A program made the position numbers and the translations under genes. 43,318 nt of DNA from Candidatus Woesebacteria bacterium (lineage in GTDB: Bacteria; Patescibacteriota; Microgenomatia; UBA8517; UBA10165): positions 1 through 43,318 of the forward strand of contig NZCP01000040.1 in assembly GCA_002686465.1 (NCBI GenBank), given 5' to 3'. Shown in pieces: positions 3,288 to 17,120 of this stretch. The notes beneath the pieces are model-generated. The model was not told the origin of the DNA. It made no database searches and saw only the letters and a list, made by a program, of their open reading frames with translations. How positions within the stretch are numbered: the first letter of the stretch is position 1; each line of letters begins with the position of its first letter.

Positions 3288-4805
3288 TTACCAACCCGAT
3301 CCAGTGAGTCTTTTAAAAATAGCGGGGAGAAACTGCCGCTTTTTCTCAGGAGTTGGTGTCGGAGTAGCTGGTTGACTGATAGTTACTGCAGCTTTTTTCC
3401 ACTCATCTCCAGGATTGTTTAGCCCGTCAGTTATCCGCTTAATATGTATGCCATTAGCGTTTGGATCGGTGGATTTTAGAGAAACTACAAGGTATCGCTC
3501 TCCATTTTTTTCTAACACATTGATCGATCTAATGCTATTTCCAGATAGGCTTTCTGTTGGGAAACTACCATTTCTTTCAACAAGTTCGCGCTTGTCTAGA
3601 TTTTCTGGATCATCTAAGTCAGCGACCTCAATATAGAAAGAGTGCTTATTGTTTTCTGATGTCTGTATCCCCAGAAACATCTCCCTGCTTATAGTGTCAA
3701 GAGTAGCTCTAGTTAGAAAAATGGAACCAGAGACAGGTGAGTAAAGACTGACTTTTGGCTGAACTTCATTTTTTGTTGAACCATGTATATCAAATAGTGT
3801 CCCTGTAAAATGACCGGGATTGTCTGGGGAAGTTGTATTGTTACTAAGAAAGCCGGTTCTGCTGGTGCCCTGATCATCAAACTGAATGACTTCTCTGCCT
3901 CTTCCGTCACTAGCACTTTTTCTTTCTGCCTGTATACTACCGTCTTGAGCGTAAACGATTTCTACATATCCGCTATCCAGAAGGAGTATTGCTTCGTTCA
4001 CAAATGTTCCGTCACCTCGGTCTCGAATCTCAGTCATTTGAACAAATGCCTGATCGTCGTTTTCTGGAAGACCTTGGAAAGTTACAGGGGTTTCGACAAC
4101 TGCATTGTTATTGTCACGATCCAGGCGAAACATTACAATTGGACCTTCACTATTTTTAAGAAAAGACACAACGATGAATTGATTGTCTGGAGAAATTTGC
4201 ACTATGCCTTGATCACTCGACATAAAACCAATAGATTCAACTTCCTCTCTTATCGTTGTTGCCCAGCCATCTTCGGTGATTTCGATTATTCCCTTTGATC
4301 CATCGTATCCGACGGCAGCTCCGAAATTTGGGTCGGTTGTGGACATAGAAACAGATCGGATATCGAAGTCCACCTCTTTTGATGTATTTTGGTCTAAAGT
4401 CCCAGTGGTTGTGTTGAGTTCAGCTTTAACAATATATCTTTTACCGTCATTAAATTCTGCTCCGTAATACATTACACCGTCACCATTGACAGAAACATCT
4501 ATTACCTCGTAACTAAATTCTTGGGCAAGTTCGGAAGACTCTTTTCGAGCAGCTTTCGCTTTTGGACGTTCTGGCGGGGGGGTAGTTGTTGGTTCTGGTC
4601 CGGATGCCGCCTCGACTGAGGGGATAGGTAATTTTGATGCGACCCCTGCCACTACAGCCGCTCCTATGGCTCCTCCCAAAAGGCCAAGAAATCCTCTTCG
4701 GCCTATACGTGGGGAGGATGGAGTTTTAGGTTTTTCTGGAGAGGTAGGATTCCGTTCTATGTCTAGCATAGGCTTGGGCTCTTTTCGGGCAGACTTGTCT
4801 TCCAT
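3288..4805 (-). CDS. exported hypothetical protein with Tat-like signal; possibly beta-propeller
   Basis: 505-aa ORF; N-terminus RIGRRGFLGLLGGAIGAAVVAG (twin-Arg motif); repetitive beta-rich body. Confidence 0.7.
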   Translation of the reverse strand: MEDKSARKEPKPMLDIERNPTSPEKPKTPSSPRIGRRGFLGLLGGAIGAAVVAGVASKLPIPSVEAASGPEPTTTPPPERPKAKAARKESSELAQEFSYEVIDVSVNGDGVMYYGAEFNDGKRYIVKAELNTTTGTLDQNTSKEVDFDIRSVSMSTTDPNFGAAVGYDGSKGIIEITEDGWATTIREEVESIGFMSSDQGIVQISPDNQFIVVSFLKNSEGPIVMFRLDRDNNNAVVETPVTFQGLPENDDQAFVQMTEIRDRGDGTFVNEAILLLDSGYVEIVYAQDGSIQAERKSASDGRGREVIQFDDQGTSRTGFLSNNTTSPDNPGHFTGTLFDIHGSTKNEVQPKVSLYSPVSGSIFLTRATLDTISREMFLGIQTSENNKHSFYIEVADLDDPENLDKRELVERNGSFPTESLSGNSIRSINVLEKNGERYLVVSLKSTDPNANGIHIKRITDGLNNPGDEWKKAAVTISQPATPTPTPEKKRQFLPAIFKRLTGSGW

Positions 4806-15340: not shown

Positions 15341-15520
15341 TTACCTAATGAAATTACTCATTATGCTTGCGAATATATAATCTAATCCTCCGATGTAAAC
15401 CCCGATAAATATTGAGGCAACAATAACTAATACAGTTAACTGTATTGTTTTTTCTCTTGTGGGCCAGACAACTTTGTCAAGCTCAGCTTTAACTTCGCGC
15501 AAAAAAGAAACAGGGTTCAT
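15341..15520 (-). CDS. secE: preprotein translocase subunit SecE
   Basis: MNPVSFLREVKAELDKVVWPTREKTIQLTVLVIVASIFIGVYIGGLDYIFASIMSNFIR inside the longer track ORF. Confidence 0.9.
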   Translation of the reverse strand: MNPVSFLREVKAELDKVVWPTREKTIQLTVLVIVASIFIGVYIGGLDYIFASIMSNFIR

Positions 15521-15646
15521 ATACGGGAAATTTCTAAAGAATGCAAAATTGTAGCATATTTGAGCGTAGATTTCTACCGTTTGAGTTTGCAAGGCTGGAT
15601 TTTCATTGATTGAGGGAAATATGTTACTTTGGTATACTCTTTGAAA

Positions 15647-16531
15647 GTGGCTAAAGTTAGAAAAGCTGTTATTCCAATAGCTGGGCTTGGCACCAGGTTT
15701 TTGCCTCAGGCAAAAGCAATTCCCAAGGAAATGATCCCCTTGGTTGATAAACCCGTTGTGCAGAATGTTGTTGAGAGAGTGGTGGATGCCGGAATAGATC
15801 AGATAATTTTCGTCACTAGTCCGCACAAGAAGGCAATAAAAAATCACTTTGACAGGAATTTTGATTTAGAAGCAAAACTTCTTTCCAGCGGCAAAAAAGA
15901 GGAGCTTCAACAAATAAGAAAAATCTCAAAACTCGCAGAGTTTATCTATGTAGAACAGAAGGAAGCTCGTGGTAATGGTGATGCGATTCTGACTGCTGAG
16001 AAGGTTGTTGGAGATGAGCCCTTTTTTGTTACATATCCTGATGAGATTTTAGATGCGAGTCCGTCTTTGGGGAGTCAGCTCATAAAAGAATATAATCGGT
16101 CTGGCACAATCATATTGGCGGCAATCAGGAGTGATGATCCTGATGCAGCAGACAAATATGGATATGCAGCAGGGCGTGAGATACAAAAGGGGATATTAGA
16201 TGTTGAAAAGGTAGTCGAGAAGCCGGGCAAGGGAAATACTCCTTCTGATTACGTTTTGGTGGGTGGATATATTTTCACACCCGATATTTTTCCAGCTTTG
16301 CGCAAAGCTGGAAAAAAAGTTGAGGAAGGCAAAGAGCTTGTTTGGGCTGATGGAATGAATGTAGCGCTCTCAGAAGGCAAGCACGCGCGGGCCGTTATGA
16401 TTAAAGACTTCAAATATTACGACTGTGGGTCAAAGATTGGCTATTTGCAAGCAGTTGTGGAGATGGCCCTTAAAGATAAAAGGCTGGGCAGTGAATTTAG
16501 GACGTATCTCAAAAATCTTCGGTTGGAATGA
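15647..16531 (+). CDS. galU: UTP-glucose-1-phosphate uridylyltransferase
   Basis: KVRKAVIPIAGLGTRFLPQAKAIPKEMIPLVDKPVVQNVVERVVDAGI; GTG start at 15647 preferred since TATACT (15633-15638) covers the TTG at 15629. Confidence 0.93.
   Translation: MAKVRKAVIPIAGLGTRFLPQAKAIPKEMIPLVDKPVVQNVVERVVDAGIDQIIFVTSPHKKAIKNHFDRNFDLEAKLLSSGKKEELQQIRKISKLAEFIYVEQKEARGNGDAILTAEKVVGDEPFFVTYPDEILDASPSLGSQLIKEYNRSGTIILAAIRSDDPDAADKYGYAAGREIQKGILDVEKVVEKPGKGNTPSDYVLVGGYIFTPDIFPALRKAGKKVEEGKELVWADGMNVALSEGKHARAVMIKDFKYYDCGSKIGYLQAVVEMALKDKRLGSEFRTYLKNLRLE
16287..16316. repeat. perfect 30-nt palindrome inside galU
   Basis: TTTTTCCAGCTTTGC / GCAAAGCTGGAAAAA, 15-nt arms, no spacer. Confidence 0.9.
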
Positions 16532-16572
16532 AACTCCTCGAGTTTTCGACGAAAGCAGGAAACGTAGTATAT

Positions 16573-16767
16573 TTACTCGTCCCGCTTTTTTGCTAGCTCA
16601 CGCAAATGTCGAACTCTGTAGAGTTGTTCTTTGCGACGTTCAGACTTAGTCGTGTGTCGCTCCCGATCTTTAACTTCTAATAAAAGACCAGATTGTAGTA
16701 TTCTTTTTCGAAACCGAGCGATCAATCTGTCGGACGATTCGCCAGGCTTTGCTTTGACAACTACCAT
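16573..16767 (-). CDS. rpsU: 30S ribosomal protein S21
   Basis: MVVVKAKPGESSDRLIARFRKRILQSGLLLEVKDRERHTTKSERRKEQ. Confidence 0.9.
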   Translation of the reverse strand: MVVVKAKPGESSDRLIARFRKRILQSGLLLEVKDRERHTTKSERRKEQLYRVRHLRELAKKRDE

Positions 16768-16848
16768 TCATATCTCAACCCCCTTTCAAATTCGGCAGAA
16801 ATTGGAGTAACTATGGGAATTATACCACATTATCACTTTAGTGATTCA

Positions 16849-16908
16849 GCAGGGGTGGAGGGAATAAGTCTACCTTTGCTTTGCAAACGATCTTGATCCT
16901 TCCACTAT
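16849..16908. repeat. tRNA-Trp-adjacent structured 60-nt repeat, copy 1
   Basis: gcaggggtggagggaataagtctacctttgctTtgcaaacgatcttgatccTtccactat; near-identical to copy 2. Confidence 0.9.
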
Positions 16909-16948
16909 TTAGATGAACAAACTGCAAAAATGCAGCCTGTTTTAACTA

Positions 16949-17008
16949 GCAGGGGTGGAGGGAATAAGTCTACCTTTGCTTCGCAAACGATCTTGATCCC
17001 TCCACTAT
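16949..17008. repeat. tRNA-Trp-adjacent structured 60-nt repeat, copy 2
   Basis: gcaggggtggagggaataagtctacctttgctTcgcaaacgatcttgatccCtccactat; starts exactly 100 nt after copy 1. Confidence 0.9.
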
Positions 17009-17049
17009 ATACAAATATTTCAGACACAACGGTCTGAAATATCCGTATG

Positions 17050-17120
17050 CAGGGGTGGAGGGAATCGAACCCCCGTTACCGGTTTTGGAGACCGGTGTCC
17101 TACCACTGAACGACACCCCT
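17050..17120 (-). tRNA. tRNA-Trp(CCA)
   Basis: AGGGGTGTCGTTCAGTGGTAGGACACCGGTCTCCAAAACCGGTAACGGGGGTTCGATTCCCTCCACCCCT cloverleaf, anticodon CCA. Confidence 0.95.

Follow-up and report, generated by a model that had tools for sequence, protein, structure and literature searches.

The closest known counterpart of the repeats described here is the set of tyrT (rtT) repeats of Escherichia coli (Rfam RF00391). RtT RNAs are described as being released from tRNA operon transcripts and have been linked to amino-acid limitation (PMC4986893), and rtT resembles the BIMEs of enterobacteria (PMC2965389). A different precedent comes from the archaeal Caldiarchaeum, in which a mobile element left a tRNA-Thr fragment behind. 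There (PMC3293823), a partial tRNA copy lies beside an intact tRNA, as in the locus studied here; however, the element is 1.8 kb long and carries a recombinase gene, and such hairpin units go unmentioned in the abstract. Nothing pertinent emerged from literature searches on partial copies of tRNAs in CPR bacteria.

The window, i.e., the whole stretch of 43,318 nt analyzed here from a Candidatus Woesebacteria bacterium, holds units that share their layout with the repeats of E. coli K-12 tyrT/tyrV. In both, a tRNA is directly followed by tandem units that have its orientation. Each unit closes with the tRNA 3' end, copied from A58 onward and preceded by T in place of G57 (TATTCCCTCCACCCCTGC in the window, TAATCCTTCCCCCACCACCA in E. 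coli tRNA-Tyr). The E. coli units have an upstream arm complementary to the copied end (GGGGAAGGAT...AATCCTTCCCC) and a structured apex, and the folds of the window units display the same parts. However, the pitch is 178 nt for the E. coli tyrT repeats vs. 100 nt in the window, the E. coli copies include CCA and those of the window do not, and the apex sequences differ. RF00391 (RtT) matched neither the window nor 16 loci of relatives, even at permissive thresholds. Thus, rtT and the window units have a common layout but do not form a detectable sequence family. In addition, the set found in Woesebacteria involves many tRNAs and also 5' ends, unlike E. coli rtT.

Organization of the tRNA-Trp locus

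Four tRNA genes, Thr(TGT), Tyr, Thr(GGT), and Trp, were placed by ARAGORN on the minus strand of the window, with rpmG (L33) between the tRNA-Thr(GGT) and tRNA-Trp genes. The tRNA-Trp gene does not encode CCA, and its nt 58-74 (17065..17049) are the source of the copied 3' end. In the direction of the transcript (minus strand), the tRNA-Trp gene is followed by two 60-nt units with a pitch of exactly 100 nt, arranged as follows:

17049..17120, minus strand: tRNA-Trp (CCA anticodon), by ARAGORN; Rfam tRNA, 66 bits
17009..17048, minus strand: spacer 1, directly 3' of tRNA-Trp, unique sequence with the hairpin ATATTTCAGAC-N6-GTCTGAAATAT
16949..17008, minus strand: unit 1 (proximal), by sequence and fold (z -3.8)
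16909..16948, minus strand: spacer 2, by sequence, with its own hairpin CTGCA-AAAA-TGCAG
16849..16908, minus strand: unit 2 (distal), two differences from unit 1 in 60 nt, one of which breaks an outer-stem pair
16810..16848, minus strand: segment 3' of unit 2, by sequence, with the hairpin ATCAC-TAAA-GTGAT and then TGTGGTATAAT
16590..16773, minus strand: rpsU (ribosomal protein S21), the next gene 3' of the units (PF01165, E 1.8e-7)

The hairpin of spacer 1 is terminator-like and lacks a clear U-run. The motif TGTGGTATAAT, recognized by eye and absent from the output of a consensus scan, is likely the extended -10 promoter of rpsU. The tRNA-Trp gene usually neighbors secE. In the window (15341-17120), galU and rpsU intervene between tRNA-Trp and the secE-nusG-rplK cluster, and this order is a rearrangement of that neighborhood.

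Each window unit comprises a complementary arm, an apical stem-loop, and a copy of tRNA-Trp nt 58-74, in this order. Its sequence is GTGGAGGGATCAAGATCGTTTGC-RAA-GCAAAGGTAGACTTATTCCCTCCACCCCTGC, and the distal copy has GTGGAAGGA. In unit 1, the three parts are the arm GTGGAGGGA, the apical hairpin GTTTGC-GAA-GCAAA, and the copied end (T)ATTCCCTCCACCCCTGC at 16949-16965; the leading arm base-pairs with TCCCTCCAC within the copied end. The final 17 nt of each unit correspond to tRNA-Trp from A58 to its end, and the nucleotide before this copy is T in the units and G57 in tRNA-Trp. In transcript orientation, unit 1 folds at -24.4 kcal/mol (z -3.8), with 0 of 200 shuffles equally stable, and the value for unit 2, which has a single mismatch in its stem, is -17.5 (z -2.3).

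Most of this anatomy agrees with the initial annotation of the stretch. The 17-mer GCAGGGGTGGAGGGAAT was recovered at the same three positions (16849, 16949, and 17049), and the placement of the tRNA by ARAGORN confirmed that the last occurrence is the tRNA-Trp 3' end. The 60-nt element with one difference in the hairpin loop and one in the outer stem was also seen (16883/16983 and 16901/17001, respectively); with its tail, which holds one more difference, it is a 64-nt repeat with 95% identity between the copies and an exact spacing of 100 nt. All hairpins named in the annotation are present. The variable ~40-nt hairpin segments exist as well; however, they had been placed before each 17-mer, and in the transcript they come after it because tRNA-Trp is on the minus strand. 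The two ~40-nt spacers are mutually unrelated, and each contains a hairpin.

Distribution of the units in related genomes

The 64-mer was found in only two places when its own genome was searched, and it was absent from the 56 relatives searched. The 60-mer had been proposed for a search of the genome and its relatives; its sequence was found nowhere else in its own genome, the order, GTDB species genomes, viral contigs, or plasmids, but the same architecture was present at the tRNAs of relatives. An exact scan with the apex of the window units gave no match in GTDB species genomes or viral contigs, and the window region had no match in plasmids. Among the matches listed for phage records, only tRNA-Trp was matched. 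The Rfam search yielded no known family beyond tRNA, the other matches being unrelated or below threshold. Because the window apex was not found elsewhere, the window units are linked to the other apex families by anatomy and not by sequence.

Analogous copies were observed at the tRNA-Trp loci of relatives, and the pattern then proved general across tRNAs: units were found at many of them, each matching its own adjacent tRNA. Among 292 tRNAs, a set for which some 5' loci had been fetched by the 5' apex pattern, 33 had a 5' copy and 25 had a 3' copy, vs. 1.4 and 0.6 expected from mismatched tRNA/flank pairs. Here, the first 18 nt were sought within 260 nt upstream and the last 18 nt within 320 nt downstream, with at most four mismatches in each case. 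Seven genomes had been sampled chiefly through tRNA searches or as whole contigs, and their 237 tRNAs had 17 5' copies and 14 3' copies (at most three mismatches). Beyond the order, 16 tRNAs from two genomes of its class had no copies. One boundary of the copies is the mature end of the tRNA, and the other is nt 21 in the D-loop or nt 56-58 in the T-loop. The complementary arms of many units fit their own tRNA better than other tRNAs. The units were located at a minority of tRNAs only, with no conserved tRNA identity.

The 3' units are organized as tRNA, spacer, complement, apex, and copy of about nt 56/58-73. The main 3' apex (type I, TCGATRGYGC...GCACGG|CGA) was detected at 12 sites in 8 genera, and a control with the reversed pattern gave 0. 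At least 11 of the 12 type I sites are preceded by a tRNA and copy the end of that tRNA with 0-1 mismatch. The distance from the tRNA end to the copy end is mostly 76-84 nt at these sites, one of which is an exact tandem with a period of 78. The 3' copies are almost always exact, and in type I units ~75% of the positions in the opposite arm are paired. An exact copy with a drifting arm hints at upkeep of the copy through selection or conversion rather than at recent origin alone; an arm that started out fully complementary would mean that the copy has been maintained. In relatives G048 and G050, a 3' unit lies beyond a terminator-like hairpin.

The 5' units are mirror images of the 3' units, in the order of copy of tRNA nt 1-21, AGC-RRA-GCTTGG, complement of the copy, spacer, and tRNA. 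They were found at Trp, Gly, Ile, Ala, Lys, His, Thr, Leu, Gln, Arg, and Ser tRNAs, and those at Arg and Ser have variant apices. The covariation of the 5' hairpin was 0.255 vs. 0.096 in shuffles (0 of 500), and five pairs were changed on both sides. The 5' copies are often located 11-12 nt 3' of a TATAAT-like box, and thus, to judge from sequence, they would start the transcript. A class-wide scan for 5' units matched genomes of the order and, outside the order, gave a single weak match. The exact 5' apex was found across GTDB in 11 stretches, titled Ca. Woesebacteria or Microgenomates except for two "bacterium" contigs. Since the 5' apex (TA|AGC-RRA-GCTTGG) was also found away from tRNAs in G024 and, in G020, as an array with units of 30 nt, it is an interspersed repeat.

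Several individual loci deserve mention. The array in G020 (L084:1384-1545) is intergenic and consists of 30-nt palindromic units TGGTA|AGCAAAGCTTGGCCAnnnnnnnnnn away from any tRNA. In the window's own genome (G000:C1, L034), a diverged 5'-type unit (GGATAAGCAGAGCTTGG...AAAGCAAAGCTTG) is located before tRNA-Ile(TAT). The same genome contains a tRNA-Arg(CCT) nested in another tRNA-like sequence (G000:C56, L050:1451-1626); this shell, with GTCCCCGTAGCTCAACGGACAGAGCACAGGG... before and ...ACCTGCGATGTAAGTTCGACTCTTACCGGGGACGC after the gene, has complete acceptor, D, T, and anticodon stems. In G050 (L144), tRNA-Ile(TAT) at 3972-4044 likewise sits inside a tRNA-like shell, whose anticodon stem (CGATCCTTATGAC/GTCATAAGATCG) is elongated.

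Turnover of the units was seen between two congeneric species, G024 and G014. The 3' units at Ser-GCT and Tyr and the 5' unit at Thr-CGT are present in G024, and the corresponding sites in G014 are empty; Ser-GGA has a diverged 5' unit in both. Exact tandem units were observed in G056 and G029. The flanks of G056 and G019 were too diverged for an empty-site alignment.

Origin and possible roles of the units

We favor, with moderate confidence in the explanation as a whole, that the window units are rtT-like insertion units at tRNA-Trp, which spare the tRNA by duplicating its end, and that they are part of a set that extends across the lineage of the Woesebacteria order, with arms taken from the neighboring tRNA and an apex from one of a few families. 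Tiny tandem insertion units were among the origins proposed in the initial annotation, and a version in which such units duplicate the tRNA end agrees well with the observations: congeners differ in the presence of units, exact tandems exist (G029 and G056), and the units recur at many tRNAs, each with its own end. A small palindromic unit would insert 3' of tRNA-Trp, the copied end leaves the tRNA intact, and the units would be tolerated because the tRNA end is duplicated. The direct repeats would then allow tandem multiplication or scarless loss. The units may arise by copying and insertion at the DNA level, via template switching in replication or an RNA/cDNA step; they could be transcribed in the tRNA trailer and removed by 3' processing, and most of them would be short-lived and near neutral.

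The boundaries of the copies are compatible with copy-back from processed tRNA or its fragments, or with template switching at hairpins. A bolder proposal, put forward only tentatively, is that the units are a self-propagating hairpin class that takes the end of whichever tRNA it joins, at the 5' (nt 1-21) and the 3' (nt 56/58-73) side, probably by copy-back of processed tRNA or fragments. Such a class would be active in Woesebacteria and would account for the old E. coli tyrT repeats as another case of it. Searches for Y1/RAYT genes, for an integrase among the larger window proteins, and for viral and plasmid sources gave no enzyme or donor copy for the units.

The main rival to the insertion-unit explanation is a functional trailer RNA, in which tRNA-end mimics (acceptor/T-arm-like minihelices) would act as processing sites, decoys, or sRNAs, as proposed for E. 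coli rtT. Putative decoy or processing roles, which the initial annotation had also named, are possible. The stable folds, the covariation, and the exactness of the copy while its pairing arm drifts all point in this direction, as do the 5' copies that would start the transcript 11-12 nt past a TATAAT-like box. So does the described release of RtT from tRNA operon transcripts with its link to amino-acid limitation (PMC4986893). We nevertheless consider a functional RNA rather doubtful, as units accompany only a minority of tRNAs and are missing from congeners, the 3' units of G048 and G050 are located past the terminator-like hairpin, and no tRNA identity is conserved.

It is unlikely that the units are remnants of att sites, with repeated att cores left by miniature or decayed elements that a tyrosine recombinase had inserted at the 3' end of the tRNA. 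The tRNA T-loop is a known integrase sublocation. Direct repeats of the tRNA 3' end whose start lies in the T-loop, together with their tandem occurrence, are reminiscent of integrative elements, and the archaeal tRNA-Thr fragment is a precedent (PMC3293823). However, no element, integrase, or virus was found here: the larger window proteins, to which the scan was confined, included no integrase, and no viral or plasmid copy was detected. The units are ~50-120 nt long and free of cargo, their arms are derived from each target tRNA, and mirror-image units (D-loop) exist at tRNA 5' ends. The att-core version of the earlier proposal was thus not supported. A viral att source was rejected; the exact window-apex scan of viral contigs was empty, and the other matches lacked a nearby tRNA, namely ten matches to the 3' pattern with no tRNA within 300 nt, which look like chance, and one looser match to the 5' pattern.

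Still less probable is an origin of the units as palindromes of the REP/BIME kind, mobilized by a Y1 transposase (RAYT or IS200/IS605) that inserts them 3' of GGTA or a similar motif. Short hairpins, arrays, and genome-wide interspersion (5' apex type) are features of both, as illustrated by the apex sites away from tRNAs and the 30-nt array in G020, and rtT itself resembles enterobacterial BIMEs (PMC2965389). On the other hand, the arms of the units are copied from tRNAs, no cognate RAYT association was found, and the window 60-mer occurs only twice in its genome, whereas the 5' apex type of relatives is interspersed. No PF01797 (Y1) was found in the window's genome, and no Y1 gene in several unit-bearing genomes (e.g., G011, G018, G020, G031, G038, G039, and G017). 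The RAYT genes sampled in relatives are flanked by a hairpin different from the units. Y1/RAYT mobility as the direct driver was rejected because of this absence of PF01797 from several unit-bearing genomes and the different flanking hairpins. RAYT-like Y1 transposase genes with flanking REP-like hairpins, e.g., TGACAAGGACGGACCTTGTCA or ATTGCAAGGTCTGACCTTGCAAT, were observed in relatives at L189, L193, L197, and L210.

That the tRNA underwent an ordinary tandem segmental duplication and that the copies then decayed is very improbable and was rejected on unit anatomy: some loci (G006 Thr and G004 Ala) look like degraded tRNA copies, but the units keep only nt 58-74 and also have a complementary arm and an apex that the tRNA lacks, their spacers are unrelated though the units are 95% identical, and apex families exist.

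The E. coli tyrT repeats, so far something of an isolated and little-understood curiosity, now look like part of a wider phenomenon, with an E. coli-like layout in a very distant lineage of reduced genomes, at many tRNAs, and with 5' mirror versions. Target-specific arms, covariation, presence or absence in congeners, and occurrence at many tRNAs make both the origin and the function of these units testable by comparison. If copy-back from tRNA is true, it would be a new way of writing tRNA sequence into the genome beside its own gene.
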